Of a DNA stretch of 57,184 bases, positions 188 through 48,600 are shown in pieces. Made by a program: the position numbers and the translations under genes. The notes beneath the pieces were generated by a model that saw only the letters and a list, made by a program, of their open reading frames with translations, did no database searches and was not told the DNA's origin. The DNA comes from Myxococcaceae bacterium (GTDB taxonomy: Bacteria > Myxococcota > Myxococcia > Myxococcales > Myxococcaceae): the NCBI GenBank assembly GCA_003818285.1, contig RPRB01000011.1, positions 1 to 57,184 of the forward strand. The letters are read 5' to 3'. Every line of letters begins with the position of its first letter. Position 1 is the first letter of the stretch.

Positions 188-1066
188 TCAGCGCTCGATG
201 GCGCCGAGACGCCCGGCCTGGAAGTCCACGATGGCCTGGTGGATCTCCTCGGAGCTGTTCATGACGAAGGGGCCATAGCGGGCCACGGGCTCGCGGAGGG
301 GAACGCCGCCGAGGAGCAGTAGCCGGGCAGGACCCCCGGCCTCCTTCAGCACCGAGAGAGTCACCGCGTCGCCAGGGCCGAAGAGCGCCGCCTGCCCGTT
401 GCGAACCTCGCGCGCCTCGGGTCCGGCGAGCACCGAGCCTCCGAAGACGTAGGCGAACACCTGGAACTCCGGCGGCACCGGCACCTCGACCCGGGCGCCG
501 GGCAGCAGCGTCCAGTCGTGGAGCAGCACCGGGGTACGGGTCTCGATCACCGCCTTGCCGCCGAGGGCCTCGCCCGCCAGCAGCCGCACCCTGGCCAGGC
601 CGTCGTCGCTGGCGCGCTCGGGCAGAAGAGAGCTGGGAATCTCCTGGTAGCGCGGGGCCATCATCTTGTCTTGGCGCGGGAGGTTCACCCAGATCTGGAA
701 GCCGTGGACGCGGCCGCCCTCCTCGCGGATGCGCCGGGCCGGAAGCTCCGAGTGCACGACGCCGGCGCCGGCGGTCATCCACTGCACGTCGCCGGGGCCG
801 AGGTGCCCGCGATGGCCCGCCGAGTCCTCGTGCTCCCAGTCGCCCTCGAGGGCGTAGGTGACGGTCTCGAAGCCGCGGTGTGGATGGTCCGGCGCTCCGA
901 CCGCCTCGCCCGGGCCGTACTCGACCGGACCCATCTCGTCCAGGAGGAGGAAGGGATCGATCTGCGCCAGGCCCGGCGCAGGGAAGGGACGGCGGACGAC
1001 GAAGCCGCCGCCCTCCTGCTGGGTGTGGGCCTGGAGAACGCGGCTGATGGGACGGGGGGTGGACAT
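188..1066 (-). CDS. Pirin family protein
   Basis: A 292-residue bicupin of the pirin family. The metal-site motif HPHRGFETV (His61, His63) and GVVHSE (His105, Glu107) supply the four expected ligands for a ferrous-type metal. Bacterial pirins are cytoplasmic and variously reported as quercetin-type dioxygenases or as regulators of pyruvate metabolism; which applies here cannot be read from sequence. The open frame extends nine codons further upstream, but the ATG at 1066 is preferred because GAGGAAG lies just ahead of it and family members begin this close to the first strand. The C-terminal cupin (from about residue 175) is less conserved, as usual. It sits alone downstream of the cupredoxin operon, 96 bases from its last stop, and could be read through from it. 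Confidence 0.92.
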   Translation of the reverse strand: MSTPRPISRVLQAHTQQEGGGFVVRRPFPAPGLAQIDPFLLLDEMGPVEYGPGEAVGAPDHPHRGFETVTYALEGDWEHEDSAGHRGHLGPGDVQWMTAGAGVVHSELPARRIREEGGRVHGFQIWVNLPRQDKMMAPRYQEIPSSLLPERASDDGLARVRLLAGEALGGKAVIETRTPVLLHDWTLLPGARVEVPVPPEFQVFAYVFGGSVLAGPEAREVRNGQAALFGPGDAVTLSVLKEAGGPARLLLLGGVPLREPVARYGPFVMNSSEEIHQAIVDFQAGRLGAIER

Positions 1067-1162
1067 GTGGCTTCCTCGAGCCTTCACCTTCACCCGTCCG
1101 GGCGCAGCCGCAAGCCCGAGTGCCTGGAATCGACCGTTCCCCGGGGAGCAACGGTGCGGCGC

Positions 1163-2119
1163 TCAGTAACCGAGCTGCGTCTGCCGCGGCTTCCCCGCCT
1201 TGTCCGGGACGAAGGTCATCGGGGGACGGTCGCTGTTCGCCGTGAGGCGCGGGGCGGTGACCGTCTCGGCCTGAACCGATACCGCTCGCCGGACCGGCTC
1301 GAGGCTGGACTCGTGCCAGGCATGGACCTGGTACTCCCCCAGGGGAACGTTCTTGACCGTCCAGGAGCCGCGGTCGTCGGCCTGGGCGTAGTACGGCGAG
1401 TCCACGACGTAGACGTACGCCACCATCGACGTGTGGATGTTGCACAGGAGGTTGACCGGGCCCGGTGTCCGGAACGTCCTGTCTCGCGCCTCCCCGCTCC
1501 GGTACAGCCCGAGGTCGAAGTCGTTCGGACGGCTGAGGGAGAACACGTTGTGGAACACCTCGTCGTCGTTCCGGAAGTGCACCGTCGCCCCCACCGGCAC
1601 GGCGAGCACACGGGGAATGAACTGCTTGCCCCGCTGGACCACCGTCCGCTCGATGGCCTTCGGCCGGGGCGTCGGCCCGTCGGTGCGGGTGAGCCACACC
1701 ACCGTGCCACCCGGCCCGACGGAGCCGCCTCCCGCGACCTGTCCCTTCACCGTCGCCAGCACCGGCTGGGGCGGGGCGGCGAGCAGGGGTGCCTCCGGCT
1801 CGGCCACCGGACTGCCCCCCGCCCTCCGGCGCGCGTTCTCCGCGAGCGGGCGAACCACCGCTGCCACCTCCGGGGAGAGATCGCGGATGGCCAGGAGCCG
1901 CTCGAAGCGGTCCGCCGCCGTCGCCATGTCTCCCCGGTCGTAGGCGAGCTTGCCCGAAGAGAGGAGGTTGAACTCGAGGTACCTGCGCTCCACCACGGCC
2001 TTGAACGCCAGATCCTCCGGCGTTCGCACCGCGAGAGGGAGCGGCACCTCCTCTCCCGGCCAGTCCTTCACCGGGCCCGCTCCGAGGGCCAGGGCCAGCA
2101 TCCAGGTCACGGTTCCCAT
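1163..2119 (-). CDS. Exported cupredoxin-domain protein with type-1 copper ligands
   Basis: A 318-residue protein with a short hydrophobic N-terminus, a helical region (residues 35-100) and a cupredoxin-like domain (about 120-250). Likely type-1 copper ligands are His190 (FHNVFS), Cys226, His229 and Met232 in CNIHTSM, matching the C-x2-H-x2-M loop of plastocyanin/MauL-like proteins. A carboxypeptidase-regulatory-like strand pattern follows (WTVKNVPLGEYQVHAWH). It probably works in the periplasm as an electron carrier or copper-binding protein. ATG at 2119 is chosen over TTG at 2125 because GGGGGAG is better spaced from it. It is the last gene of the leftward kinase-lipoprotein-barrel unit, 24 bases after the barrel stop. 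Its electron partner is unknown, and the hydrophobic N-terminus is short for a signal peptide. Confidence 0.82.
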   Translation of the reverse strand: MGTVTWMLALALGAGPVKDWPGEEVPLPLAVRTPEDLAFKAVVERRYLEFNLLSSGKLAYDRGDMATAADRFERLLAIRDLSPEVAAVVRPLAENARRRAGGSPVAEPEAPLLAAPPQPVLATVKGQVAGGGSVGPGGTVVWLTRTDGPTPRPKAIERTVVQRGKQFIPRVLAVPVGATVHFRNDDEVFHNVFSLSRPNDFDLGLYRSGEARDRTFRTPGPVNLLCNIHTSMVAYVYVVDSPYYAQADDRGSWTVKNVPLGEYQVHAWHESSLEPVRRAVSVQAETVTAPRLTANSDRPPMTFVPDKAGKPRQTQLGY

Positions 2120-2143
2120 CGCCAAGTCTCCCCCTGCTCTGCT

Positions 2144-3445
2144 CTAGAAAGAGAACACCGCCGAGGTGGTGAAGACGTCGTTGTCCACCGTGGGCGCGCC
2201 CGCGTTCTCACGGTTGAACAGCACCTCTGCCTTGAGCTGGAGCACGCTCCACAGCTCGAGCCGGCCACCCACCGTCCATCGTGAGGTCAGCAGCTCCGGG
2301 GTGCCGTCGAAGCCTCCCTTGCGGCGGTCGTACCTCCCGTAGACGCTCGCGCCGGAGAGGACCCGTCCGTGCACCGGCAGGGCGTACGCCAGCTGGACGT
2401 AGAAGCCGTGGGCCCGGAAGCCCGAGGCGATGGTGTACACGCCCGTCCCGGTGGGCTTCGGAGGGCCGGTCGCCGGATCCTCGTTGACGTCGACGTACTC
2501 GCCCCAGACGGAGAATGGACCGACGAAGATCCGGGCGTCGAACCCGAGCTGGCGCTGCGTCACTCCCGGATCCGATTGGTCGTTCCGTGGCCCGTAGAGC
2601 CCGCTCACCCCCAGCTTGAGCTCCGTCCCCAGAAGTGACAGCTCGTAGCCGAGCCGCGCGCTCCCCACCGGCACGCCGGTGAAGCTCAGGGACTCGACCT
2701 GGAGCGACTCGACCTGCGACCCGTGGTTGGTCGCCGCGGCGTTGATCGAGATCGCCGAGGAGATCGAGGGCAGCTGGAACCGGTAGAGGACCTTGAGCCC
2801 GATCGGGTGCCCGGTCGTGTACCGCGCGATGAGCGAGGGGGTGATGCCGAGCCGGAGGTTGGACTCGTTCTCCAGGTACTCGATGCCGAACACCGAGTCG
2901 AACCGGCCCGCGGTGATGGTCAGCTCCTGCTCGGAAAACGGCGACACGCGGCCGAAGGCCTGCTGGAGAAGGAACCGGGTCTCGCTCCCGTTCCCGTTCC
3001 ACCGCGGCAGGGCCTGGGCGCGGACGAAGACCAGGACCGGAAGACCGGACGGGGAGACCTGGAGGTCGACGCTCGCCACGTTGAGGAGGAACGTCCCGTT
3101 TCCCCCTGCCCCGACGGTGTAGGGGAGAAACCCGTTGACGAACCGGCCCCCGGCGTCGAGCGAGGCCACGTCCCCCCGCGAGTTCACTGCCGGGGCGAAC
3201 GGGTCCACGTAGTAGTCGGCGGGGAGCCGGGTGTCGCCAGGGACGAAGCTCGAGCCGTTTCCCTGCGCCTTCGCCCAGCCGACGTCCACGTAGCCCGAGA
3301 TGCGGAACACAGGCTGGGTGGATTGCGTCGGGGTGTATCCACCGGGCTCGCTGTCCGGGGGCTCCCCTTCCGGGGGCACGGGTACGGCTGGCTGGGCGAG
3401 CGCCGGCAGCGCGGCCAGCAGCCAGGGCACGAGCACCCGGGTCAT
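2144..3445 (-). CDS. Outer-membrane beta-barrel protein (porin-like)
   Basis: A 433-residue protein with a short signal peptide (cleavage probably after LPALAQ, near residue 18) and a Pro/Glu-rich linker. Alternating amphipathic strands follow, ending TTSAVFSF, with the terminal Phe expected by the BAM machinery. Aromatic girdle residues and Gly/Asn turns fit a barrel of the kind annotated as porin or outer-membrane beta-barrel in Myxococcota. The start overlaps the lipoprotein stop (ATGA, 3442-3445), so translation is coupled. It is third in the kinase-lipoprotein-barrel-cupredoxin unit. The pore may let a substrate or metal reach the periplasmic cupredoxin; that is inference. No TonB box or plug domain is visible, so it is not a TonB-dependent receptor. 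Confidence 0.8.
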   Translation of the reverse strand: MTRVLVPWLLAALPALAQPAVPVPPEGEPPDSEPGGYTPTQSTQPVFRISGYVDVGWAKAQGNGSSFVPGDTRLPADYYVDPFAPAVNSRGDVASLDAGGRFVNGFLPYTVGAGGNGTFLLNVASVDLQVSPSGLPVLVFVRAQALPRWNGNGSETRFLLQQAFGRVSPFSEQELTITAGRFDSVFGIEYLENESNLRLGITPSLIARYTTGHPIGLKVLYRFQLPSISSAISINAAATNHGSQVESLQVESLSFTGVPVGSARLGYELSLLGTELKLGVSGLYGPRNDQSDPGVTQRQLGFDARIFVGPFSVWGEYVDVNEDPATGPPKPTGTGVYTIASGFRAHGFYVQLAYALPVHGRVLSGASVYGRYDRRKGGFDGTPELLTSRWTVGGRLELWSVLQLKAEVLFNRENAGAPTVDNDVFTTSAVFSF

Positions 3446-4629
3446 CGGGGCACCGGCCTTCCGGCGTAGCCGACGAGAGGAGAGGTGAACCGCACCGGCT
3501 GCGGGCGCCGGTCGAGGAGGGCGCCCTCGACCGCCGACTGTCGGTCCAGCCAGCGGCAGTTCCCGGGGAACCCGGCCACGTCCGAGAAGCAGGTCGGATT
3601 GAGCGCCACCCGGCCCACGTACTGCGCAACGTCCGGGCGGGCGGCGATCTCCGGAGCGGGCTCCGGCATCTGGACCGCTCCGGAGAGGACGGCCGCCTGG
3701 CGCAGGGGTGCATCGGCGGGCAGGAACACGCCGGCGCTCGTCGGAGGAACGACCAGGATCAGGTGGCTGAAGGCGCCCGAGCGCGGCGCGCCCGAGGCGC
3801 CGAAGGCCAAGGGGTCCGGGTGGCCCTCCGGACCGGTGCCGAGCACGTCGGGGAGCAGGAGGGCCCGACCATCGAGCCGGATGAAGCGGTAGAGCGGGAC
3901 GTCGACGATGCGTCCGTCCTCGCCCCAGTGAAAGCCACCCGAGCCGAAACCGAGCGTCGGCTGGTGTGCGCCGCGAACCCAGACTCCGCCCGGCCTCGGG
4001 GAAGCAACCGGGTCACCGCTCAGCGGGCGGACGGGAGCCACACCGGCCGGCGCGGCGAGGCCGACGTTCCCGGGCGAGAGCACCGCGAGCAGCGGGTTCG
4101 CCTCGGTGCGGGGCAGCGAGGGGTCCACGAGCGTGCGCGCGTCGCGGTACGCCTCCGGGGAGGCGCCAGGCGGAATGACGACGCTGAAGAGCTGCCAGAA
4201 CGGCGAATAGAAGAAGCTCGGCGGGACCACGTCGACCACCGGCTCCGCGTCCTGGACACGCACCGCCGGCGGTCCGCTCGGCGGGACCTGGAAGAGGACG
4301 TACCAGGGCTGGAGCCACGCCTCCGGCAGGTTCTGCCAGACCTCGGCCACCACGTAGGCCGCTGCCTGCCCGTCGAGCCATGCCGGGACGATCACCAGCC
4401 CGTCCGTCCCCGCCGGTTGAACCGCGGCGTCCAAGGTGTGGGGAGGCGAGAGCCAGGGGATCGTCGCTCCTCCCGGGGTGACGAGGCTGCCCGCGTCCAG
4501 TCCGGCGACCATCGCGCCGCCGTGGGCGGCCTCCGCGAGCTCACTGGACGACCAGATGCGGGCTCGCTCCGAAGCGGGGATGGACTCGCAGGCGGCGACG
4601 AGGAGCGCCAGCGCCGGCAGCCACCTCAA
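3442..4629 (-). CDS. Lipoprotein of unknown function
   Basis: A 395-residue protein beginning with a type II signal peptide, lipobox LVAAC with Cys14 as the lipid-modified residue. No Asp follows the Cys at +2 (Glu15), so outer-membrane sorting is possible. The rest is Pro/Gly/Val-rich with no motif I recognise; a Cys pair near residues 349 and 357 could form a disulfide. The start is TTG at 4629, overlapping the kinase stop (TTGA), and the 3' end overlaps the barrel start. This tight packing says the four products are made together. It may be a surface partner of the barrel, or an extracytoplasmic ligand-binding partner for the kinase sensor. Confidence 0.75.
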   Translation of the reverse strand: MRWLPALALLVAACESIPASERARIWSSSELAEAAHGGAMVAGLDAGSLVTPGGATIPWLSPPHTLDAAVQPAGTDGLVIVPAWLDGQAAAYVVAEVWQNLPEAWLQPWYVLFQVPPSGPPAVRVQDAEPVVDVVPPSFFYSPFWQLFSVVIPPGASPEAYRDARTLVDPSLPRTEANPLLAVLSPGNVGLAAPAGVAPVRPLSGDPVASPRPGGVWVRGAHQPTLGFGSGGFHWGEDGRIVDVPLYRFIRLDGRALLLPDVLGTGPEGHPDPLAFGASGAPRSGAFSHLILVVPPTSAGVFLPADAPLRQAAVLSGAVQMPEPAPEIAARPDVAQYVGRVALNPTCFSDVAGFPGNCRWLDRQSAVEGALLDRRPQPVRFTSPLVGYAGRPVPR

Positions 4630-6683
4630 CGGTGGATCTCCGCAGGAGGCACGGCGAATTGCACGGCCGTCTTCCCCGGCTCGGTGGTGCTCTCCGAGGC
4701 GGACCCCGATGTCTCCTCGCCGGCCCGCCCGAGATCGGCGAACCGCGCCTCCTCGCTCGCGAGGTCCGCGCCCACCAGACGCTCGACCAGCTCGAGGAGC
4801 ATCGTGCCTCCACCGACGAGCTCACGGGCCGGGAGCGCGAGCAGAAACTCCTCCGCGCTTTCGAAGCGGTCGGCGGGTTCGATCCGCAGAGCCTTCTCCA
4901 GCAGGGCGGCCGCGGCCTGGGGCAGGCTGGAGATGCGCGCCAGCTCCACGGGCCCCGGCCCCTGCGCGGCACGCACCAGCAGATCGTAGTCGGAGCCGTC
5001 CTGCTGATAGAGCGGCTCGCTGGTCAGGCAGTAGTACAGGGTGAGCCCGAGCGAGAACAGGTCCGAGCGCGCGTCGATCGGCAAGCCCCGCGCCTGCTCC
5101 GGGGACATGAAGAGCACGTTGCCCTTCACCAGCCCCGCCTCGGTGGTGGTGCCGTCGTGGCGGTCGAATCGGGCGATCCCGAAATCGAGGAGCTTCACCT
5201 CGCCGCGCCGGCTCACCATCACGTTCATCGGCGAGATGTCCCGGTGCACGATGCTCAGCGGCCTGCCCGACGGGTCGGTCCGCGAGTGCGCGTAAGAGAG
5301 GGCGTCGAGGATCTCGTGCGCGACGTGGAAGACCGCCGGGACCGGCAGTCCACCGCTCCCCTGGTGCCGCGCGCGCTTGACCAGCAGATTGAGGTCCCGC
5401 CCGAGGATGTACTCCTGCGCGAGGAAGAACTCGTTCCCCACCCGGCCGAAGTCGAAGATGGGAACGATGTTGGAGTGCACCAGGCTCGCTCCCAATCGCG
5501 CCTCGTTGACGAAATGGTGCATGACCTCCGGCCTCCGGGCCACGTCCTCCCGAAGGCGCTTCACCACGAAGAACCGGCGAAATCCCTCGACGCCGTACGA
5601 GACCGCCAGGTGGACGGTGGCCATCCCGCCCTGCCCGAGCACGTGGAGCAGCTGGTAGCGGCCGAACTCGGTGGGCGTGGGCCGGGAAAGCAAGGTCTGC
5701 GCGAGGGGCACCTCGTCCGACCGCACCGCGGGCACCGGGGTCCGGAGGCGATCGAGCTCGGCGCGGGTCCTTCGCAGCTCGTCCCGCGTGGCCTCGAGGA
5801 GCGCGTCATCCTCCCTCGGACGACGGAAGCTCATCACGACCAGCGCGGCGGAGATTCCCAGGCCGAGCACCCAGAGCACGGCGACCACCGTCTGGGCCGG
5901 GCGGCGCGCCGCCTCGGAGGCAATCCGGGTATCGGCGGATGCCCAGAGGCTCAGCCCGTCACCGATGGGAAGCGCGCCGGCGGCAGCAGCGGCACCGTCG
6001 AGCACGGGGCGAGGTCGACCGAGCAGCTCCCGGAGCCGTTGCTCCTCCTCCGCGGGCCCGCTCGCGGCCAGGACGTGCCGGTTGTCGTCCGCCACCGCGA
6101 CCGCGCCTCCGGTGCGACCGGCGATGCGGGCGAGATCCTGTTTCGAGAGCGGCTGGGCGAGGACGATCGCCGACGGCCGGCGCCCGGGATCGACCGGAAC
6201 GTCGACCAGGGCCGCGCTGGTGAGCAGGACCGTGTCATCGACGCGGAGCGCGGCGGAGGCCGGAGAGCGCTTCGCCGCTTCCTGCACGAGGGGGTCCGCC
6301 TTCAGGGAACGGGCGAGCTCCTTCCTGCCGAACTCGTGGCGTTCGGCGCCCATGACGAGCAGCTGGGCCGGGAACTCGTCGCGGAAGCTGCGCCACCAGT
6401 CCTCGGTCTCGAAGCCATCGCGGAGCGTGCGTTCGTCGACCCGCTGAGCGACCAGAGCCCGCACTGCGTTCAGGGATGCGGCAGCGGTGGCGCGGGCCTC
6501 GAGCTGGCGGATCCTCCCCTGCAGCTCGAGCTGTCCGAGCGCTGCTGCGTGAGCGGCCAGTCGGAGGGCCTCCGCCTGGGCGGCATCGCGCGCGCGCCCG
6601 AGGACGCTCGCACTGGCCACCGCGACGCCGCCGAGCACGGCCGCCGAGGCGAGCAGGAGCGCCATGCGCCTGGACCGGATCAT
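4626..6683 (-). CDS. Membrane Ser/Thr protein kinase with extracytoplasmic sensor domain
   Basis: A 685-residue Hanks-type kinase with reversed layout: TM1 (residues 7-28), a periplasmic sensor of about 235 residues with Cache-like strand pattern, TM2 (266-286), a short coiled coil (292-314), then the kinase domain (342-610). Visible motifs: glycine loop GQGGMA (350-355), Lys375, HRDISPMN (480-487), DFG (500-502) and SPEQ (527-530). The catalytic loop has Ser where classical kinases have Lys (HRDLKxxN), a variant common in myxobacterial kinases. Most bacterial Hanks kinases carry the kinase N-terminally, so this order suggests direct ligand sensing. It heads the leftward operon. Candidate targets are its operon partners or an unlinked regulator. 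Confidence 0.9.
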   Translation of the reverse strand: MIRSRRMALLLASAAVLGGVAVASASVLGRARDAAQAEALRLAAHAAALGQLELQGRIRQLEARATAAASLNAVRALVAQRVDERTLRDGFETEDWWRSFRDEFPAQLLVMGAERHEFGRKELARSLKADPLVQEAAKRSPASAALRVDDTVLLTSAALVDVPVDPGRRPSAIVLAQPLSKQDLARIAGRTGGAVAVADDNRHVLAASGPAEEEQRLRELLGRPRPVLDGAAAAAGALPIGDGLSLWASADTRIASEAARRPAQTVVAVLWVLGLGISAALVVMSFRRPREDDALLEATRDELRRTRAELDRLRTPVPAVRSDEVPLAQTLLSRPTPTEFGRYQLLHVLGQGGMATVHLAVSYGVEGFRRFFVVKRLREDVARRPEVMHHFVNEARLGASLVHSNIVPIFDFGRVGNEFFLAQEYILGRDLNLLVKRARHQGSGGLPVPAVFHVAHEILDALSYAHSRTDPSGRPLSIVHRDISPMNVMVSRRGEVKLLDFGIARFDRHDGTTTEAGLVKGNVLFMSPEQARGLPIDARSDLFSLGLTLYYCLTSEPLYQQDGSDYDLLVRAAQGPGPVELARISSLPQAAAALLEKALRIEPADRFESAEEFLLALPARELVGGGTMLLELVERLVGADLASEEARFADLGRAGEETSGSASESTTEPGKTAVQFAVPPAEIHR

Positions 6684-7311: not shown

Positions 7312-7884
7312 GTGAAACCTGTCCCGCCCCTCCAGCGTAAGCCCTCGGATAGCACCGAGACCGATGAGCAGCTGATGGAGCGATTCGTCCAGGGAGAGGA
7401 GCAGGCATTTTCCGAGCTGTTCAGGCGGCACGCCCCCCGCCTCGAGGGAGCCTTGCGCCGGATGGTCGGGTCGGCCGCGGGCGACGTCCTCCAGACGACC
7501 TTCCTTTCCATCGTCCGCGCCCGTGGTCGCTACCAGCGGGGCGCTCCCTTCCGTCCCTGGCTGTACACGGTGGCGATCAACGCCGCCCGGGACCACCTCC
7601 GGCGTCATCGGCGGGAGGAGCCGCACCCGACGGACAAGCTTCCCGACAGGCCTGCCGAGCCCGCGCCCCTGCCGGACCCCGGGCTCTCGCGGACCGTCGA
7701 GGCGGCGCTGGCGCAGCTGCCGGGGAATCAGCGGGAGGCCATCGTGCTCCATCGCTTCGAGGGTTTCTCCTTCAAGGAGATTGCCAAGCTGCTCGGTGTC
7801 ACCGAGACCGCGGTGAAGGTCCGCGCCCACCGGGGTTACGAGCGCCTCCGCACGCTGCTCGCCTCGCAGAGGGAGCCCGGATGA
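7312..7884 (+). CDS. ECF-type RNA polymerase sigma factor
   Basis: A 190-residue sigma-70 family protein of the ECF class. Region 2 runs from about residue 19 to 92, including the FRPWLYTVAINAARDHLR stretch that recognises the -10. After a short linker, region 4 (about 125-182) carries a helix-turn-helix, FSFKEIAKLLGVTETAVKVR, that reads the -35. The overlapping next gene is its predicted membrane anti-sigma factor, which would hold it inactive until an envelope or oxidative signal arrives. The start is uncertain. GTG at 7312 has no clear ribosome site, but the first internal ATG (7375) would cut into region 2. A candidate ECF promoter overlaps this 5' end (see 7313-7339). Confidence 0.93.
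   Translation: MKPVPPLQRKPSDSTETDEQLMERFVQGEEQAFSELFRRHAPRLEGALRRMVGSAAGDVLQTTFLSIVRARGRYQRGAPFRPWLYTVAINAARDHLRRHRREEPHPTDKLPDRPAEPAPLPDPGLSRTVEAALAQLPGNQREAIVLHRFEGFSFKEIAKLLGVTETAVKVRAHRGYERLRTLLASQREPG
7313..7339 (+). promoter_or_regulatory. Candidate ECF-type promoter at the sigma factor 5' end
   Basis: TGAAACC (7313-7319), 16 bases, then CGTA (7336-7339) resembles the AAC/CGT signature of many ECF promoters and could be autoregulatory. It lies inside the annotated 5' end of the sigma gene, so it can drive that gene only if translation starts further downstream. A short motif like this can occur by chance. Confidence 0.25.
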
Positions 7885-8630
7885 CCGACTGCGACCGTTT
7901 CCTCGAGACGCTCGCCTCGGACCGGCTGGACGAGGCGGCACGCGACCACGCCCGCGGGTGCGCCGTCTGCGGCCCGCTCCTCCCCGAGCAGCCTCCGGCG
8001 GTGGCCGGCACGCCCGCTCCCTCGCTCGAGGCGGTGCGGAGCCGTGCCCTCGAGGCGCTCCGAACGACCCCGCTGCGCCCGTGGACGCGAGACGCGGCAC
8101 GCATCGCCCTGCTCCAGACAGCGGTGGCGCTGGTGGTGACGGTCCTGCTCGGGACTCGCAACTGGAGCTCACCGATGGCGCACCACATGGCGCTGGCGGT
8201 CGTGGGCGCGGTGCTCCTGGTGGTGGTGATCCTGGGCAGCGTCGTCGCGCTCGCGCCGGGGCGCCGCAGCCCGCGTGCGATGCTGGCGCTCATCCCGGTT
8301 GTCCCGCTGCTGCTGGTGCTGTCGGGCAACGGCGTTCACACCGCGACCACGATGCGAAGCGCTCTCCCCTGCGCGGTGACCGTGGTCCTGACCGCGGTCC
8401 TCCCCCTGGCGGTGGGGCTGGCGCTGCTCCGGGGCATGGCGCTCGATGCAGCCCGGACGGCGGCGCTCGCGCTGTCGGCCGCAGCGACCGGCCTCTTCGC
8501 CCTCCACTGGAAGTGCCCCGACGGGAGCGCCTCCCACCTCATGGCCTACCACGCGTTGCCCTGGCTGGCCCTCGCGCTTCTCGCCATTCCTCTCCGTCGT
8601 GCGCTGCCGACCGAGAGTCACGTTCCCTGA
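7881..8630 (+). CDS. Zinc-binding anti-sigma factor with six-TM NrsF/DUF1109-like domain
   Basis: A 249-residue protein. The short cytoplasmic head has a His-x3-Cys-x2-Cys zinc motif (His23, Cys27, Cys30 in HARGCAVC), as in ZAS-type anti-sigma factors. About six hydrophobic segments follow (from residue 74 to 240), with a KCPDGSASHLMAYHALP motif before the last one, as in the DUF1109/NrsF family. NrsF-type proteins are membrane anti-sigma factors for ECF sigma factors. The start overlaps the sigma stop (ATGA, 7881-7884), the normal sigma/anti-sigma arrangement. Having both a ZAS-like zinc knuckle and the NrsF-like membrane body in one chain is less usual. The signal sensed is unknown. Confidence 0.82.
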   Translation: MTDCDRFLETLASDRLDEAARDHARGCAVCGPLLPEQPPAVAGTPAPSLEAVRSRALEALRTTPLRPWTRDAARIALLQTAVALVVTVLLGTRNWSSPMAHHMALAVVGAVLLVVVILGSVVALAPGRRSPRAMLALIPVVPLLLVLSGNGVHTATTMRSALPCAVTVVLTAVLPLAVGLALLRGMALDAARTAALALSAAATGLFALHWKCPDGSASHLMAYHALPWLALALLAIPLRRALPTESHVP

Positions 8631-14431: not shown

Positions 14432-16483
14432 TTGACCGTCAGCACGAGCTCCTCCTGGTTCGGTCGTTACCGGCTGACGTCGCGCATCGCGACGGGCGGC
14501 ATGGCCGAGGTGTACCTGGGCCGCGCGCTCCAGCCGGACGGGCGGTTCGGTCCCGCCGTGGCGGTGAAGCGGCTGCTCCCGCACCTGACCTCCGACGCGG
14601 CCATCGTGAGGATGTTCCTCAACGAGGCGGAGATCACCCAGCAGATCGACCACCCCAACGTGGTCCGCATCCTCGACCTGGGAAACGTCCAGGCCGAGCC
14701 GTTCATCGCCATGGAGCTGCTCGAGGGGCACAGCTTCGCCGAGCTCCGTCAGACGGCCGCGCAGGGGGGGCGGCGGGTGCCGCTGGGCATCACCCTGCGC
14801 GTGCTCACCGAGGCCTGTCGCGGGCTGGATGCCGCACACCGGGCCGTGGACAGCAAGGGCCGGGAGCTGCAGATCGTCCATCGCGACTTCACCCCCGACA
14901 ACATCCACGTCAGCGTCACCGGCGAGGTGAAGGTCATCGACTTCGGCATCGCCAAGTCGGCCGCGGTGCCGGGTGGAACCGAGCCCGGGACACTGAAGGG
15001 CAAGTTCTTCTACATGTCGCCGGAGATGATCGCCGGTCACGACGTGGACCACCGCGCCGATCTCTTCGCCGCCGGGGTGATGCTCTACGAGCAGCTCTGC
15101 GGGCGCAGGCCCTTCACCGGTCTGAATACCGAGGAGGTGCTGAACCGCATCTCCGAGGGGAAGCCTCGCCGGCCCACCGAGTTCGACCCGTCCGTGCCGC
15201 TGGCGCTGGAGCTGGTCTGCCTCACCGCGCTCTCGAAGGACCCCGCGCGCCGCTTTCCGTCGCTGCACGAGTTCATCGCCGCGATCGAGGCGGTCGGAGG
15301 CCAGGCGCGGGTCGCCACGCCCGAGGAGATCAGCGAGTACGTGACGTCGATCTTCCCTGCCGAGGAGGACCCCAAGCGCATCGCGCTGCGGCGCGCCCGC
15401 CTCGCCGATCCGTCCACGCCGACCCACCGGGCGCCGGACGCGATCGGCGTCCTGCTCCCGCCAAGGGAGGAGAGCCGCCCGCCGCGGAAGGAGCCACCGG
15501 GCCCCCCGCCCGGACCCTCCGCGTGGCAGCGCCGGATGGCGTGGGCGCGGGAGAAGCTATTCCGGGTGGAGGTGCTCGGGCCGGCGGCGCTCGCGGTGGT
15601 GGTGATCGCCGGGGCGGTCGCCGTTGCCACCCGGCCCGAGCGGTCGGTGGCGGACCGGCTGCAGCTCGCGGAGAGGGCCTCCAATCCGGGTCAGCGGATC
15701 CGGGAGCTCACCGCGCTGGCCGAGGACCCGAGCGCCACCGAGGCCGATCTCCGGCGGGCCGGGGAGCTGGCCCTGCAGAGCCCGGATCTGGAGGGAGCGC
15801 TGGCGGTCACCCAGGCCTTTGCCCGCCGGTTCCCGAAATCCATCGAGGCGGCGCTCCAGGAGGCACGCGCCTGCGTGGGCCTGCGCCTGGGGAAGAAGGC
15901 GGACGCGGCGATCGATCGGGCGATCAACCTCGGCCCCGACGACCCGCGGCCGGATCTGCTCCGCGCGGACCTGCGGCGGCTCCAGGGCGATGCCGGAGGG
16001 ATGCTGGACGCGCTGACCTCGGCGAGCAAGAAGGCGCCCAACGACCGGGAGATCGCGGTCCGCCGCGGCGAGCTGCTGAGCCAGGCCGGGCGACTGGACG
16101 AGGCCTCGGGCGTGCTCAACGCGGTGCTCAGGCACCGTTTCCATCCGGGCGCCGCCGCCGAGCTGGGCTTCGTGAAGCTGCGGCAAAACCAGTCGACCGA
16201 CGCGATGCGGCTCCTGCGCGCCTCGCTGAGTCGATCGCCGAACCTGGCCAAGGCGCACTACTACCTCGGCGCGGCCCTGACCCAGCAGGGCGACATCGCC
16301 GCGGCCGAGTCCGAGTACCGGACGGCGGACCGGCTGGCCCCGAGCGACCCCCGTCCGCTCGGGGCGCTGTGCACGCTGTTCGCTCAGAACAGGCGCGGCC
16401 CCGAAGCGGAGGCGCTGAAGAAGGAGCTCGCCGACCGGTTCCCGGAGCAGGCTCCCCGCTACGTCGCGGAGTGCCACCCGTGA
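14432..16483 (+). CDS. Membrane Ser/Thr protein kinase with C-terminal TPRs
   Basis: A 683-residue protein: kinase domain (residues 12-290), Pro-rich linker (325-365), one TM (382-400), then a TPR-like helical region (405-675). Motifs are ATGGMAEVYLG (20-30), Lys46, HRDFTPDN (150-157), DFG (170-172) and MSPEM. As in the kinase at 4626, the Lys of the catalytic loop is absent, replaced by Thr, a known myxobacterial variant that need not abolish activity. The TPR part lies outside the inner membrane and may bind a periplasmic protein. The start is TTG at 14432. Its stop overlaps the start of the ChbG-like gene (GTGA), so the two are translated together. Confidence 0.9.
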   Translation: MTVSTSSSWFGRYRLTSRIATGGMAEVYLGRALQPDGRFGPAVAVKRLLPHLTSDAAIVRMFLNEAEITQQIDHPNVVRILDLGNVQAEPFIAMELLEGHSFAELRQTAAQGGRRVPLGITLRVLTEACRGLDAAHRAVDSKGRELQIVHRDFTPDNIHVSVTGEVKVIDFGIAKSAAVPGGTEPGTLKGKFFYMSPEMIAGHDVDHRADLFAAGVMLYEQLCGRRPFTGLNTEEVLNRISEGKPRRPTEFDPSVPLALELVCLTALSKDPARRFPSLHEFIAAIEAVGGQARVATPEEISEYVTSIFPAEEDPKRIALRRARLADPSTPTHRAPDAIGVLLPPREESRPPRKEPPGPPPGPSAWQRRMAWAREKLFRVEVLGPAALAVVVIAGAVAVATRPERSVADRLQLAERASNPGQRIRELTALAEDPSATEADLRRAGELALQSPDLEGALAVTQAFARRFPKSIEAALQEARACVGLRLGKKADAAIDRAINLGPDDPRPDLLRADLRRLQGDAGGMLDALTSASKKAPNDREIAVRRGELLSQAGRLDEASGVLNAVLRHRFHPGAAAELGFVKLRQNQSTDAMRLLRASLSRSPNLAKAHYYLGAALTQQGDIAAAESEYRTADRLAPSDPRPLGALCTLFAQNRRGPEAEALKKELADRFPEQAPRYVAECHP

Positions 16484-39660: not shown

Positions 39661-42600
39661 TTACACGAGCCGCAGCGCGCGCTGGACCACCGCGGCGAGC
39701 GCCGCGCTCCCGGTCAACACCGCCACGGGGTCGACGGTGTCCAGGTCCGCGCCACGCGCCACCGGATCGAGCCAGAGCAACACCCGCGCAGCGGCGGCCG
39801 GCGAGGGCACCGCCGCGAACGCCTCGGCCGCGGCGGTGGGCAGCCCCGGCACCTCGCCCGGCCGGGCCAGGGCCTGTCCCTCGTCCCCCAGGGCCAGGGC
39901 GAGCGCCACGAGGTAGGTGACCTCCAGCGGGCCGAAGACGGAGAGCGCACCCGCGCCGAGCACCAGATCGCCGGCGCTGGCCAGCCACGCCTCCGAGGCG
40001 CCACCGGGGTCGAGCCAGATCTGCAGCTCGGGAGCCCCCAGCGCGGCGAGCGACTCGTCGAGCACCGTCGTCAGATTTGGCATCTCCTCGGGAGTGAGGG
40101 CCAGCACTCCGCCGGGGAGGGTCACCGAGGTGCGCACCGGGCCACGGGCCACGGGCTGCAGGGGGACGGGGGCGGCGACGGTCTCCTCGCCGGCGAAGAG
40201 GTGTCCGAAGGCGGCGGAGCGGACCGCGGCGTCCGGGCGGCCGGCGTGGCGGAGCGCCTCGGCGTGCAGCGCCCATCCCTCGGCGTCCACGGGGTGCTGG
40301 GTGAGGAGCAGCGCCCAGAGCTCCACCGCCAGCGTGGCGCCGTCCTCGGTCGCGGCCAGCGCGGAGGCGAAGGTGCGCTGTGACTCGGGCGACAGCGCGT
40401 CCAGCGATTCGAGGGGCCCGAGGATGCGCACCACGTCGGCGTGCCGCCCGGCCCGGAGCGCGGCGAGCGCCAGCGCCTCTCGCTCCTCCGGGGTCCGGAC
40501 CAGCTGCTCCCGGAGGGCGAGCGCCTCCTGCCCTCGACCGAGCGATTCCGCCAGCTCGGCACGGAGGCGGATCCGCTCCTCGGTCGCCGGGAGCTGGGGG
40601 AGCACGCCCAGCGCGTCCGCGGCCCGGCCCAGCTGGACGTAGGCGTGCACGAGCTCGTCCAGCCGGCCACCCAGGGCCTCGGGCCCGGCGAGGGAGCTCA
40701 GCCGCTCGGCGAGGTCGGCGAACTCCTCCGGCGACTCGTCGGCCGAGGTGAGCGCGAGCAGCTTGCCGATGGCCGCGATCGACGTCGGATCCTCGGCGGC
40801 GGCCTGCGTCCACGCCGCGCGGGCCGCGTCCGTCCAGCCGATGGCGAGCGTGAGATCTCCGGCCTGCACCCTTAGGCCTGCGCGCTGGACCGGATCCGGA
40901 GTGGCGTCCACCCACGACGACAGGGCAGAGGCCGCGTCCTCGAGGCGATTGTCGTCGCGGGCCTGCTCGAAGAGGGCCTGCCAGAGCTGCGCGGCCCGGG
41001 AGGGCACGCGCCCCGCGAGCAGGCGCAGCCCACGCTCCCGCTCCGCGCCGCGACGGCTGCGGAGGTGCTGGAGCAGCGCCTCGACCAGCGCCGGGGCGGT
41101 GCTCCCGTCCACCTGCTCCAGCAGCTGGAAGACCGCGCCCTCGAGCTCGCCCAGCGCCTGGAGGCGCTGGAAGGCCCGCAGCCGCTCCTCGTCGCTGGCC
41201 TCACCTGGTGGGGAGACGAGGATCGCCTGGTGGAGCGCCACGGCGAGGTCCATCGCCCGGCGCGCCGCGGCCAGCTCGGCACACGCCTGGCGCTCGACGG
41301 CCGTGCCCTCGCGGAAGAGCAGCGTCGCGAGCCGGCGAAGGGCCTCGGCGCCGGACGGAGCCTGGGCCAGCCCCCAGAGGCTCTGGCGGATGCGCGGTGC
41401 GTCCTCCAACGCCTCGGCGATCTCCAGCGCCTGGGCGAACTGGCCGTGGGCGAGAAGCGGCTCGTACCCGTGCTCGAGAGCCTGGGCGTTCGCTCCGAGC
41501 CGGAGGAAGCGCGCCGCCCAGGCACCCGGGCCGAGCGTCGCCGGGTGGAGGCGGGCCACCCGCTCGAGCAGCTCCTGTGCTTCGGCCGGATCCCCCGCGC
41601 CTTCCCACGCCTCGGCGGCTTCGAGCAGCAGCCTCGGCCGGTCCTCGGGGGCTGCGAGCTGCGCGGCCTGGGTCAGTGAGGCGGCGGCCTTCGCCAGCTC
41701 GCTCGCGTCGCGCATGAGGCCGGCGAGCAGGAGGAGCGCGTCCTGGCTGGCCTCGGTGGCCACCGACGCACGGGCGAGCCGCGCCGAGCGGGCCTCGTCG
41801 CCGGCCTGCTGCGCGGCGAGCGCGGCCTCGTAGAGCAGCCGCGCGCGCTCGGGTCCCTGCGCCATCTCTGAGCGGGCCGCGAGCACGGTGGAGCGGGCGA
41901 GCGCGTCGTCGGCGCCCTGGAGCAGCGGGACGAGCAGATCGAGCGCCTCGGAGTATCCCGGGCCCGAGCGTCCGCCGGCGGCGAGCGGCTCGAGAAGCCC
42001 CCGGGCCTCCTCCGTCTCCCCGCGCTCGAGCAGCAACCGCGCCAGCTCGAGCTTCAGCCGGGCCGATTCCTCGCCCTGCGGAGTTCCGGCGACGAGCCCC
42101 CGGAGCACCGGCACGAGCGAATCGACCTCACCCCGGCTGCGATGGCTGTCGGCGAGCGAGCGCAGGGCGACCACGTTCCCGGGGTCCGCCTGGTGGGCGA
42201 GCTCGACCAGCGACAGCGCGCGCCCCTCGTCGTGGAACACCTCCGTGGCCAGCTGCGCCGCCTGGACCAGGAGAGCGGCGGCGCGCGGGCCGCCCGACGC
42301 CTGGGCGGCGCGCTCGAGCAGGGCGAGGAGATCCTGGTGCCGGGAGACGGCGCGGAGCCCGGCCACGGCCCGGTCCACGACGGAGGCCTCCGCGGGGCGG
42401 AGCTCGGCGAGCGGGAGCAGGGCCTCGAGCGCCTCGGCGGGGTCCTCCACCAGCGCGGCGGCGCGGCGGTAGAGCGCCTCGGCCTCATCCGGCCCGGCGG
42501 TCCGTGCCAGCCGCACCGAGGTGCGGAAGAGTCCCGGCGCGTCGTGGCGGCGCCCGTGCACCTCGGCCAGGAGCGACAGCGCCTCGCGGCCACGCTCGCC

Positions 42601-45600
42601 GTCCGGGTCGGCGGCCACCACGGCCTCGAGAGCGTCAGCGGCATCGTGCAGGGCGCCGGCGGCGAGCGCGGCGTTCCCCAGCCGCAGCTGCAGCCGGGCC
42701 CGCTGCGCCGTCGGAAGGTCCGGGGCGAGCTGGAGCGTGCGGCGATCGTAGGGCTGCGCGGCGACCGGCCCACCGGCGGCCGCGGCCAGGTCGCCGCGGG
42801 CGAGCAGCGCTCTCACGTCGTCCGGGCTGACCCGGAGCAGCTCGTCCCAGGCCTCGGCGGCGAGGAGCGCTTCCCCGGCGCGAGTCAGGAGATCCGCTCG
42901 CTCGGCGAGCAGGGCTGGCGCCTCGGTGGGCACCGCCCGCGCGCGCTGGCCCAGCAGCTCGGCGAGGGCGCGCACGTCGTCCTCGACCCGGGCGCGCCGG
43001 GCGGCGAAGGCCACGTCCAGCTCGGGGGCCTGGTCGAAGGCGCGATCCTCGGCGGCGCGGGCGTCGTCCTCGCGGCCCCCGGCGCGCAGCGCCTCCGCGG
43101 CGCGCAGCCAGGTCCGTGCGGCCTCCGCGCCCACCTGCCGCTCGCCGCGCGCAGCCTCGAGTCGGCCGAGCGCCACGCCGTCGCCGGCCGCCTGGAGCCG
43201 CTCCACGTGGCGTGCGTACGCGGGGTGGAAGGGATCTGCCTGGAGCAGGAGCGCGTCGAACGGCGCGGCGTCGGCATCCTGTCCCCTGGAAACCAGGAGG
43301 TCCGCCAGCTCGGCGGTGATGGATGGATTCGCCGGGGCGAAGCCGTGAGCCGCGGAGAGCGCATCCAGGGCCTGGTCGGACTTGCCCAGATCGCGGTACA
43401 GCCCCGCGGCGCGGCGGAGCAGGTAGGCCCGCGCGGCGCCATCGGGCCGGCTGCGCGCAGCGGCGACGTAGTAGGCCGCGAGGTCGGCTCCGCGCCCGGA
43501 GCGCTCGAGCAGCTGGACCAGGAGGACCTCGGCAGCCGGGTGGCCCGGCACCTCGGCCAGCGCATCACGCACCAGGGACTCGGCCTCGGCCTCGTCGCCC
43601 AGCGGACCGGCGTGGAGCTCGGCGACCTGGACCAGTGCGGCCGCTTGTGCCTCGCCGGTGGCCAGCAGCGGCACCGTGCGCTTCAGCCATCCCGCGCGGG
43701 CGCGGGTGTCGCCGCGGCGGGCGGCGAGTTCCGCCAGCTGGGCAGCGGTCTCCACGTCCGGGGCGAGCTCGAAGGCCCGGGCGAGCGCCGCGCTGGCGGC
43801 GGTGGCGTCCCCGCGCACGTCGAGGAAGAGCGAGGCCCGGCGCCGTTCCACGGTGGCCGCGTCGGTCTTCCGGCCCGCGCCCTCCAGCGTCCCCCGGAGA
43901 CGGGAGAGCGCCTCGAGCGCCTCGTCGGCCCGGTCCGAGCGGGACGCGACCTCGGCCACCTCCTCCAGCGTTCGCGAGCCGAGCGCGACGTCGCCGCTCC
44001 GGAGCGCCGCGTCTGCGGTGGCCTGCAGCGCCGCCAGGAGCGCGCCGCTGCGCCCCGTGTCGCGGTGGAGCGCGGCACGAGCCTGGTGCGCGGGAAGCGG
44101 ATCCGGGAGCGCGGACGCGGCCCCGAGCAGGAGCCGCTCGGTCAGCTCGGGATCCGCCAGCTCCGCGCGGGCCCGCTCACCGAGCTTCAACAGGGCGCGT
44201 CCCACCTCCTCCGACGGTGGCTGGCGGAGCTGGTACGCGGCGAGCAACTCGATCGCCTCGCGGGGATCGGTGCGGGCGCGAAGCTCGGCCAGGCGCTCCA
44301 CGGCGGTGACGGGCGCGTCGGGACGGTCCGCCAGTCGCCGGAGCGTGGCCTCCGCCTGGGGAAGCTCTCCCGCCTCGGCGAGGAGATCGGCATGGGCGAG
44401 GAGGACCTCCGCCTCGCGGACGGGGCGCTGCCCCCGATCGAGACTGGCGACCACCGAAGCGAGGAGCGGCAGCGCCTCGGCCCGCGAGCCACCCGCGTAC
44501 AGCGCCAGCGCGAGCTCGGCCAGCTCGTCACCGCTGGCGGGAACCAGGGCGTGCGCCTGCCGCCGGAGCGCGAGCGCGGCGGCCCCGTCGTGGGCGGCCG
44601 AGGCGAGCTGCGCGGCCTGGCGGAGGAGATCCGCGGCGCGATCCGCCGGGAGGAGCCCAGAAACCTTCTGCAAGAAGGGGGAGGCCTCGGTCCAAGCTCC
44701 GCGGCGGAGCTGGAGCGAGATCAGCCGGTCCAGCGGCCTCGGCGCCTCGGCATCGAGGTGCAACGCACGGCGGAACGCTGCCTCGGAGGCCTCGCCGCGG
44801 CCCAGCCGTTCGTCGAGGAGCGTTCCCAGCTCGGCGAAGAGGGCGGCTCCGCGCTCGCGCGGAGCGCGCTCGGCCTCCACCTCCAGCAGCTCGGCCACCG
44901 CCGGCCAGTCGCCGGCGTGCTCCAGGAGAGCCCGCAGGCGGGGGAGGGCCCGCGGATGGCGGGGAGAGATCTTGAGGACGCGGCGGTAGCTGTCGGCCGC
45001 GCCGGCGGAGTCCCCGCGCTCCTCGGCGAGCTCCGCACGCTCGAGCAGCACGTCGGCGCGGAGCGGCTCGGGGGCGAGCTCCGCCGCCTGGAGTAGCGCA
45101 TCGGAGGCTGCGTCCAGCCGACCCCGGCGGCGCTCCATCCTCGACAGCGTGCGCCACGCCTCCACCCCATCGGCCGGCGCCCCGCGCTGGGTGGTCTCCC
45201 GCAGCGCAGCCTCGGCCAGGTCCGGACGGCTCTCTTGCAGCGCACGTCCGAGCGCGAGCAGCCGCGGGGCGGCCTCGACACCGACCGACGGATCTCGCTC
45301 CAGCGCCCGCTGCCAGGCCTCGACCTCGCCGGCCGCATCGTCCGAGGCCTGCGCGAGCAGCGCCACCTCGCGCCAGAGCAGGGCCGGTTCCCCGGACTCG
45401 CCGGCCGCGCGGGTGAGCTCCTCTCGCGCGGCGGTCCGGTCGCCCCGGGCGCGGAGCAGCCGGGCTCGCTCCACCCGGTGGTGGGCCCGCGCGGCACCGG
45501 TGGTCAGCTCCACCAGTCGCGTCCGCAGCACCAGCGCCTCGGTATCGCTCCCCGGCACGGCGGGGGGCAGGAGCGAGACCAGGGTCTCCAGCGCCCACGG

Positions 45601-48600
45601 GTCGTCCGGCGACAGCTCCACCAGTCGCCGGAGCGCGTCCAGCGCCTCGCTGGGGCGGTGCAGCTCGAGCGACAGCTCGACCAGCTCCCTGCAGGCGGCC
45701 CGGGCCTGCTCGCCAGACAGCCGCGGCCAGAGCCCGGAGAGGAGCGCCGCCAGGGCCTCCACCGCGCCGGCGCTCCGGTGCAGGGCTGCCAGCTGGAGGA
45801 GCGCGTCGATGTCGTCGGGCGCGGCATCGGCGTAGGCGGTGAGGTGGCGGCGCGCGGCCTCTGGGTCCCCGGAGCGGACCGCGCTCTCCGCCGCCAGGCG
45901 CTCCAGCCGCTTGCGTTCGGCGGGCGGGACCACCGCCGGATCGGCGCGGGCGAGCGACAGCGCCACCTCGAGGTCCTCGAGCGCCCGGCGCGGCTCGCGG
46001 GAGAGGAGCAGCTCGGCGCGGCGGATGCGGGCCGCGGCCAGCGCGGGATCCAGCCGGAGGGCGTCCTCGAGGAGCCCTCCTTCCCGTGCCTCCCCGCGCG
46101 CGAGCTCGGCGCCGCGGAGGAACAGGCGGGCAGCGGCCAGCGGGTCGCCGACCAGCGCGGCCTGACGGGCGAGCAGCGTCGCGGCCTCGGGACGGTTGCC
46201 GGCGGAGAGCTCGAGCTCGGCCAGCGCCTCGAGGATCTGCCCCGCCAGCAGCCCCCGCGGCGCGACCTCGAGGGCGGAGTAGAGCTGGCGGTGCGCGGCG
46301 TCGCGCTGTCCCGCGTCGAGCAGCGCCCGGGCACCCTTGAAGAGCAGCGGCGCCGCGGCCTCGGTGCGGCCCTCGGCGAGGAGCTGCCGAGCCCGGAGGG
46401 CCCAGACCTCGGCCAGCTCCTTGCTTCGGCCAAGCTTCTCGTACAGCCCCTCCAGCCGGGCGGCGAGCGCGTCGTCGCCACGGCGGTACGGCAGGGCCTC
46501 GGCGTAGTGCGCGGCGGCCGCGGGGAGGTCGCCGGTCATCTCGCACGCCTGGCCGAGCTTCGCGCGCACCTCGGCGAGCTTCTCCGGCGAGCCGGTGCGG
46601 GGGAGGGTGACCAGCACGTCCTCCAGCGCGCGCCGGGCGTGCTCCGGACGCTCGCAGCGGAGCGAGAGGTCGGCCAGCTCGAGGAGCACGTCCGGGCGCG
46701 GGTCGAGCCGCGCGGCCTTCTCCAGGGCGACCAGCGCCTCGCCGAAGCGGCCCAGGCGGGCTTCCTCGACCTGAGCAAGCTCGCGGAGGCAGGCCGCCGC
46801 CAGGCGCGGATCGGCCTGGGACTCGGCCACCCGCGCCCGGGCGGCGAGCGCCGCGGCCAGGCCCGGCATGTCGGCCCGGCGGCGCTGCAGCGCGCACAGC
46901 TCGCCCCAGGCCAGGAGGTCCTCGGGCTGGATCTTCAGGACCTCGGAGAGCGCGCGGGCGGCGACCTCGAGGTCGGAGGCCAGGTCCTTCGCGGCAACCG
47001 CCAGCCGCCGCAGGAACTTCGCCCGGTCCGCGCCGTCGCGGGCGAGCTCGGTCAGGGTCGACAGGCAGCGGACGAGCAGCGGGCCGTCGCGCCGGGCCTC
47101 GCCGATGGCCACCAGGCCCTCCAGCGCGACGCGGTTCCGGGGGTCGGAATCGACGGCGCGGGTGAGCAGCCCCTCCGCCTTGTCCGGGGCGGCCAGCCGG
47201 GTGCGTTGCAGCTCACCGGCCTCGGCGAGGAACGCGGCCCGGCGGACCGGATCCGGCACGGTGGGCGCGGCGCGTTCCAGGGCCCGGGCGAGCGCGGCCG
47301 GATCTCCCGCCGCGCGCCAGGCCGGAACGAGGGCCTCGAGGGCCTTCGCGTCGTCGGGCACCAGGGACAGCGCGGCCTCCCAGTGCTCGCGGGCCTGCAC
47401 CTGGTCGCCGAACCGGGAGGTGGCGAGCGCGGCCAGCGCATGGTGAGCGGCGTGTGCTGCCTTGCGAACGCCGGCGTCGGTGGGCGACGGACCGGCGAGC
47501 TCCACCGATTGCTGATAGCCGGTGACCGCCTCGGCGACGCGGCCGAGCCCCTCGGCGGCGCGGGCCTGGGCGACGAGCGCCACCACGTCGCCGGGAAGGA
47601 GAGACACCGCCTCGCGGTAGCGGAGCAGCGCGTTGTCCAGCTGCTTGAGGCCGATCTCCCACACCTCACCGGCGCGGAGGTTCGCGCGGCCCACCAGCCC
47701 CAGGTCGTGCCTGCCGAGCGACACGTCCCGCAGCCGGTCGAAGGCCTTCAGCGCGCGGAGCGGCTCGCCCGCGCGGGCGCACAGCTCGCCGAGCAACTCG
47801 AGGGCCGCAGGAAGATCCGGGGCGAGCTTCAGCGCGGCCTCGCAGTGCAGGCGCGCCCCGGCGACGTCGTCCTCGCTCAGCGCCGACAGCCGGGCGAGCT
47901 GCACGTGCGCCTCGGCGGACTCGACCGGGTCGCGGGCCAGCGCCGAGAGCCGGCGGTAGGCGCGCAGGGCTCCGGCGCGGTCCTGCGCCTGATCCGCGGC
48001 CCGGGCCAGCGCGCGGAGCGCGGGCAGGTGATCCGGGCGGATGCCGAGCACGGCGTGCAGCGCCTTGACCGCCATCTGCGGCGCCTGACCCTCCGCCACG
48101 CGGGCCGCGGCCTGGGCCGCACTGAAGGCGGAGGCCTCGTCGCCCCGCTTGCGCGCCACCTCCACCAGCGCGAGCCAGCGCTCGGCGCTGCGGGCGGGCT
48201 CGCCGCGGCGCTCGCGGACGATGGCCTCGGCCCACAGCGGCGCGGCAGAGCCCGGGCGACGGCGGGCGAGGGTCTCCACCACGTCGAGCGCGTACTCGTG
48301 CGCGGCCGGGTCCGCGACCAGGAGCGCGAGGAGCCGCTCCAGCGCGAACGGGTGCGCCTCCTCGGCCCCGGCGCCGCGCAGGTACGCCTCACGCGCCTCG
48401 GCGAGCTTTCCCGCGGCCACCAGCGCCTCGGCCTCGGCGAAGGCCCGCGCCCCCTCGAGGGTGAGGAGCAGCTCCTCGTCGAGGAGGGCGGGGGGCGGCA
48501 GCGCACCGGAGGCGAACCGGAGCCGCAGTCCGAGCGGCGAGACCTCCACCCCGGCCAGGCGCGCCCCGTCGAGGGACGGCATCCGGAAGCCGCGCGTCAC

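Follow-up and report, generated by a model that had tools for sequence, protein, structure and literature searches.

A conserved myxobacterial operon of four genes: transmembrane Ser/Thr kinase, lipoprotein, probable outer-membrane barrel and cupredoxin

Organization of the operon

The window, which is the whole stretch of DNA analyzed here, comprises 57,184 nucleotides from a Myxococcaceae bacterium (contig RPRB01000011.1). Four adjoining genes on its minus strand are predicted to encode a membrane-spanning protein kinase, a lipoprotein, an outer-membrane barrel and a periplasmic copper protein (Table 1). The TGA of the kinase gene is overlapped by the TTG start of the lipoprotein gene (TTGA, 4626-4629), and the lipoprotein and barrel genes are joined by an ATGA overlap (3442-3445). 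The gap between the barrel and cupredoxin genes is 24 bases if translation of the latter starts at the ATG at 2119, the likely start, and 18 bases if it starts at the TTG at 2125. These ORFs and overlaps are as claimed in an earlier note on this DNA, and a codon-bias gene call, run independently, gave the identical four genes. Scans for promoters and terminators returned matches at chance level only. A Pirin family gene (188-1093, minus strand) follows the cupredoxin gene on the same strand after about 70 bases and could be co-transcribed with it; it was rejected as a fifth operon member because the flanks of the operon are not conserved in relatives.

Table 1. Positions of the four-gene operon and its genes in the window
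Feature	Position	Strand	Content or basis of assignment
Four-gene operon	1163-6683	minus	kinase, lipoprotein, barrel, cupredoxin
Transmembrane Ser/Thr kinase, 685 aa	4626..6683	(-)	Pfam Pkinase E 6e-33
Lipoprotein, 395 aa, TTG start	3442..4629	(-)	lipobox; alignments of relatives
Probable outer-membrane beta-barrel, 433 aa	2144..3445	(-)	sub-threshold Pfam, strand alternation, C-terminal aromatic
Periplasmic cupredoxin, 320 aa	1163..2125	(-)	ligand alignment, PDB profile match

Predicted products

To our knowledge, few bacterial transmembrane Ser/Thr kinases have a known periplasmic input. The window kinase has the Gly-rich loop, catalytic Lys, HRD and DFG motifs of Hanks-type enzymes; G350/G352/G353, K375, H480-R481-D482 and D500-F501-G502 are invariant in 17 sequences, and the predicted kinase is intact. 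The kinase domain lies at residues 343-608, and the Pfam match is above the cut-off. Hydropathy places the first transmembrane segment at about residues 7-25 and the second at about 266-284, with a periplasmic sensor region at about 27-260. In an AF2 model of residues 1-295 (pLDDT 92), PAS-like folds stand in tandem on a long helix at the N-terminus. When the sensor model was compared with the PDB using Foldseek, 48 matches were found at E<=0.001, mostly to dCACHE/CHASE4 domains, and the periplasmic part is thus predicted to be a sensor of this type. Domains of the dCACHE class bind many ligands, among them amino acids, AI-2 and organic acids. The fold does not tell the ligand class of the window sensor, because its match to the CHASE4 domain of IsmP (8wct; VIA Z 12.5, rmsd 4.6, 189 residues aligned) is tied with that to LuxQ (Z 12.4); in the PDB ranking, the Z values of CHASE4, LuxQ and PctA all lie within 1 of one another. 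No residues resembling metal ligands are conserved in the sensor besides E94 and D89.

In Pseudomonas, the CHASE4 domain of IsmP (PA2072) binds Fe3+ (PMC10904736) and that of PA14_37690 binds Cu2+ (PMC13277305). Like these proteins, the window kinase is a sensor of the inner membrane whose periplasmic part is predicted to fold similarly, but its output is a Ser/Thr kinase rather than PAS-GGDEF-EAL. Metal binding has been shown for the Pseudomonas domains, whereas the likeness of the window sensor to them is one of predicted fold. Unlike the IsmP-type sensors, the window kinase matches no Pfam CHASE4 or dCache profile; among its relatives, the kinases of loci L111 and L139 have CHASE4 matches below the cut-off.

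The lipoprotein has a signal peptide followed by a lipobox, VAAC (residues 11-14), whose Cys14 is aligned in 20/20 sequences. Residues W98, W105, Q107-P108, F140-Y141-S142-P143 and W145 and the Cys pair C347/C358 are invariant in the alignments. Pfam and NCBIfam searches yielded no family match. The AF2 model is confident (pLDDT 91, pTM 0.89) and has no counterpart in the PDB (best Foldseek E 0.93; none by VIA among the Foldseek candidates), so that the fold may be new, although this is not thereby proven. Neither a CXXCH haem motif nor a match to the CCP_MauG profile was found in the window lipoprotein. Kinship with MauG-like proteins was rejected at an hhalign probability of 1%, and a relationship to MbnP was rejected in the absence of an NCBIfam match.

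The third protein carries a signal peptide and shares 50-62% identity with 16 relatives; about 100 columns of the alignment are invariant. Its Porin_4 and BBP2 matches are both below the Pfam thresholds. Alternating strand-like windows number 17, compared with 9.4 in shuffled sequences (none of 200 shuffles scored as high), and each of the 17 aligned proteins ends in F or W. These features point to a probable outer-membrane beta-barrel, an assignment that reflects composition and the C-terminus rather than a solved fold.

The cupredoxin is made up of an N-terminal helical region, a type-1 copper domain and a domain resembling CarboxypepD_reg/fn3_3 (both Pfam matches sub-threshold), and its conserved C-terminal tail ends in QLGY. 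Profile positions 183-253 match the cupredoxin domains of Cu nitrite reductases (PDB profile, E 8e-8). The His and C-x2-H-x2-M expected of a type-1 copper site are present in the cupredoxin domain, for which the earlier note had spoken of apparent copper ligands; H192, C228, H231 and M234 are invariant in 16/16 aligned sequences, and the copper site is predicted to be intact. Ligand loss among relatives, which the same note had set as a test of its proposal, was not seen in the operons, and in the wider family 100 of 103 relatives have a C-x2-H-x2/3-M motif. In L179 and L180, two relatives adjoining large multihaem cytochromes, C-x3-H-x2-M replaces C-x2-H-x2-M. All operon cupredoxins form one clade in a quick tree (27 rows, SH-aLRT 99).

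Conservation of the gene set

The lipoprotein was present in 19 of the 98 genomes searched, the window genome included. Gene calls in the relatives' loci were made in this analysis. Sixteen of the 18 relatives are informative; the contigs of the other two end after the kinase and lipoprotein genes. In all 16 whose contigs span the locus, the order kinase-lipoprotein-barrel-cupredoxin and the strand are the same. Most junctions in the relatives measure -4, -1 or a few bases, a few reach about 100 bases, and the flanking genes vary among the loci. The arrangement is therefore confirmed as real and beyond chance, since order and strand are constant while the flanks are unrelated, and the set is a conserved myxobacterial operon. 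Scattering of the four genes, a possibility raised in the earlier note, was not found; a lipoprotein gene by itself occurs in one genus only, in seven genomes that lack the barrel. At the five of these loci that were inspected (L224-L228), all in large genomes, neither a barrel nor a cupredoxin gene is nearby, and Ser/Thr kinase genes are near.

A profile scan for the barrel over about 85,000 species genomes gave 27 loci, many on contigs already found. All come from metagenome-assembled genomes whose titles name Myxococcota, Myxococcales and relatives, Deltaproteobacteria or Proteobacteria, and no barrel homologues were found on plasmids. That the full operons are all from one phylum would suit an explanation in which the four genes are unrelated neighbors that stay side by side solely through recent shared descent. 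However, lipoprotein identity falls to 25-35% with the order kept and the flanks changed, the junctions overlap, and other loci have these families recombined in a different order (below). This explanation is already disfavored and we consider it highly improbable.

Variant loci

Barrels of a second type, about 27-31% identical where measured, are paired with a cupredoxin and a protein that matches the CCP_MauG di-haem profile; several of these di-haem proteins have a lipobox-like N-terminus. In L142 the order is MauG-barrel-cupredoxin-kinase, and in L139 and L140 it is barrel-cupredoxin-kinase, without the lipoprotein. The SENS sensor profile matches these three kinases at E 9e-22 to 1.5e-26, the latter for L142, whose sensor is of the window type. 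Next to the L138-L140 barrel-cupredoxin loci lie a divergent RND-type efflux pump and a regulator, which in L139 has a profile match of the MarR type. At one syntenic site, the full operon is found in G014 (L020), kinase and cupredoxin in G052 (L111) and the kinase alone in G138 (L229), a series in which kinase and cupredoxin outlast the middle genes. The window-sensor profile gave weak matches to separate 276-286 aa transmembrane proteins (E 0.005 for L098 and 0.018 for L099, compared with 0.65-0.81 in shuffled controls), and its link to the sensors of L110 and L114 was not distinguishable.

In another lineage (L119, L121, L127, L132), an AhpC-type peroxiredoxin gene precedes lipoprotein-barrel-cupredoxin, and no kinase gene was seen upstream within the 3-5 kb examined. 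Such kinase-free loci, together with those that pair barrel and cupredoxin with a di-haem MauG-like protein, are what might be expected if barrel, lipoprotein and cupredoxin were in the first place an apparatus for uptake or for electron transfer and oxidant handling. The kinase would then be a dedicated regulator that senses an imported small substrate, and not the cupredoxin, through its dCACHE domain; these domains are classically small-molecule binders. This is a serious alternative but a rather unlikely one, as the L111 site keeps kinase and cupredoxin without barrel and lipoprotein, and elsewhere a cupredoxin is again paired with a sensor in the company of different partner proteins.

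Cupredoxins and sensors at other loci

Pairs of this kind were seen in a sample of 45 Myxococcota cupredoxin loci, hand-picked from the listed matches, so that proportions are indicative only. At 7 of the 45, the cupredoxin is accompanied by a secreted partner of 241-255 aa, barrel-like by strand alternation in most, and by a transmembrane adenylate cyclase or Ser/Thr kinase. At L114, the cupredoxin precedes a two-TM kinase without the secreted partner. The transmembrane kinases of L153 and L176 have the reverse domain order, with the kinase domain first. The SENS profile matched none of the cyclase or kinase sensors adjoining other cupredoxins, and the parallel with the window operon is therefore limited to topology and gene context. 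Respiratory-type operons with molybdopterin/FeS and multihaem proteins account for about a quarter of the wider cupredoxins in the sample, so the family is not confined to signaling. The window's own genome has a second cupredoxin (L232, contig C259, 440-1818) beside a 245 aa secreted partner; the neighboring frame on the other side is truncated at the contig edge and has a beginning resembling that of the zf-HC2 kinase of L176, an arrangement of this other cupredoxin-sensor type.

Plasmid homologues of the cupredoxin, annotated 'methylamine utilization protein' or 'carboxypeptidase regulatory-like', precede a HAMP-GGDEF-EAL protein with a dCache_3 domain (above the cut-off in Caballeronia and Comamonas, just below it in Novosphingobium). 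Those of Caballeronia and Novosphingobium also adjoin genes for DUF3034 and a truncated haemoglobin, the order being DUF3034, truncated haemoglobin, cupredoxin, sensor. Like the window operon, these proteobacterial loci combine a cupredoxin with a dCache-type membrane sensor and a protein of unknown function, but the output is different, there is no lipoprotein, DUF3034 stands in the barrel's stead and a haemoglobin is added. No description of their function was found in the papers searched.

Comparison with described systems

Genes for MauG-like enzymes occur as pairs with genes for copper proteins, their partners, and in MopE one Trp is modified (PMC3621798). As in the pairs MopE-SACCP, CorA-CorB and MbnP-MbnH, a MauG-like di-haem protein is paired in the sister myxobacterial loci with a copper protein, there a cupredoxin, and with a homologous barrel; the window lipoprotein, for its part, has invariant Trp residues. 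Unlike the MauG/MbnH-type pairs, the window operon has no haem enzyme, and no MbnP or MauG model fits its lipoprotein.

The curA operon of M. xanthus, which encodes a cupredoxin, a multicopper oxidase, CopA and a sensor kinase, is copper-responsive (PMC3707914). Like the window operon it is myxobacterial and combines a cupredoxin with a sensor kinase of the membrane, but curA/CorSR has a histidine kinase and response regulator, a multicopper oxidase and the CopA ATPase, and its gene set is not that of the window. On the model of curA, the barrel of the window operon might export or import copper, with cupredoxin and lipoprotein acting as copper buffers and the kinase as regulator of tolerance genes. 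The invariant type-1 copper site, the coupling of cupredoxin and sensor kinase in curA and the copper binding of one CHASE4 domain are all in keeping with such a role in copper homeostasis. Nevertheless, we regard it as distinctly unlikely: no gene for a copper ATPase, copper efflux or a multicopper oxidase was recognized as a conserved neighbor, by profiles next to the window operon and by listing in the relatives' flanks; the RND-type pump adjoining L138-L140 may or may not carry copper. No description of the four-gene set was found in the open-access papers searched, in agreement with the earlier note, whose author knew of none.

A possible role in sensing copper or redox state

The reading that we tentatively prefer, at somewhat less than even likelihood, is that the operon encodes an envelope copper/redox-sensing module with an interchangeable cytoplasmic output. 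We prefer it because the four-gene order is kept with mostly overlapping or near-touching junctions while the flanks vary, because the same sensor kinase rejoins barrel and cupredoxin in other orders (L139, L140, L142) and because kinase and cupredoxin persist without the middle genes (L111). It is also favored by the invariance of the copper ligands and kinase catalytic residues, by the binding of Fe3+ or Cu2+ to Pseudomonas CHASE4 domains taken with the predicted dCACHE fold of the sensor, by the appearance of AhpC-type peroxiredoxin and di-haem CCP/MauG proteins as substitutes in variant loci, and by the pairing of Myxococcota and plasmid cupredoxins with two-TM/dCache sensors of other outputs. 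Against it are the diversity of dCACHE ligands and the lack of separation of CHASE4 from LuxQ and PctA, the scarcity of conserved metal-ligand-like sensor residues beyond E94 and D89, the peroxiredoxin at the kinase's place in one lineage, the partial occurrence of the cupredoxin family in respiratory-type operons and the opposite domain order of the L153 and L176 kinases. The earlier note had proposed a sensing or redox/metal-handling unit spanning the whole envelope; its first part is favored by the predicted sensor fold, the redox-enzyme substitutions and the cupredoxin-sensor pairing, and its second, the envelope span, is putative.

In such a sensing module, the barrel would admit solutes or metal into the periplasm; depending on the state of that compartment, the type-1 copper cupredoxin within it would gain or lose copper or electrons. 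The lipoprotein, or the di-haem MauG-like enzyme in sister loci, might hold or load the cupredoxin. The dCACHE/CHASE4-type domain of the kinase would read the state of the cupredoxin, or the same metal or oxidant, and would then switch the cytoplasmic Ser/Thr kinase; that is, the kinase may read the copper or redox state of the envelope through the cupredoxin or together with it. Copper loading or redox state could be the signal, as could peroxide or a small ligand. We infer likewise the positions of the products in the envelope (including that of the lipoprotein in the outer membrane), their physical contact and the direction of signaling.

A broader form of the proposal, speculative and on balance unlikely as a whole, is that the cupredoxin is a signal-carrying subunit that docks on a dCACHE/CHASE4-type sensor in an as yet unrecognized class of envelope signaling systems crossing phyla, with an interchangeable output (Ser/Thr kinase, adenylate cyclase or GGDEF-EAL); the myxobacterial form would add an outer-membrane barrel and a new-fold lipoprotein, the latter loading or positioning the copper protein. 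The operon offers a transmembrane Ser/Thr kinase with its probable partner genes attached, and ties envelope copper/redox proteins to Hanks-type kinase signaling. The general rule that it suggests, a cupredoxin and a two-TM sensor with the output swapped, would provide genes known from annotation solely as 'methylamine utilization protein' with a function that can be tested.

Other features of the window

Two more Ser/Thr kinases are encoded on the plus strand, at 14501-16480, with C-terminal TPR repeats, and at 49334-51040. At 7312-8630 (plus strand), an ECF sigma factor gene is followed directly by a gene for a membrane protein with a marginal match to NrsF (negative regulator of sigma F), likely a sigma/anti-sigma pair. 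An open frame of 3178 codons (39664-49197, minus strand) has many TPR-like repeat matches, and its G+C content is about 77%, compared with about 72% usual for the window.
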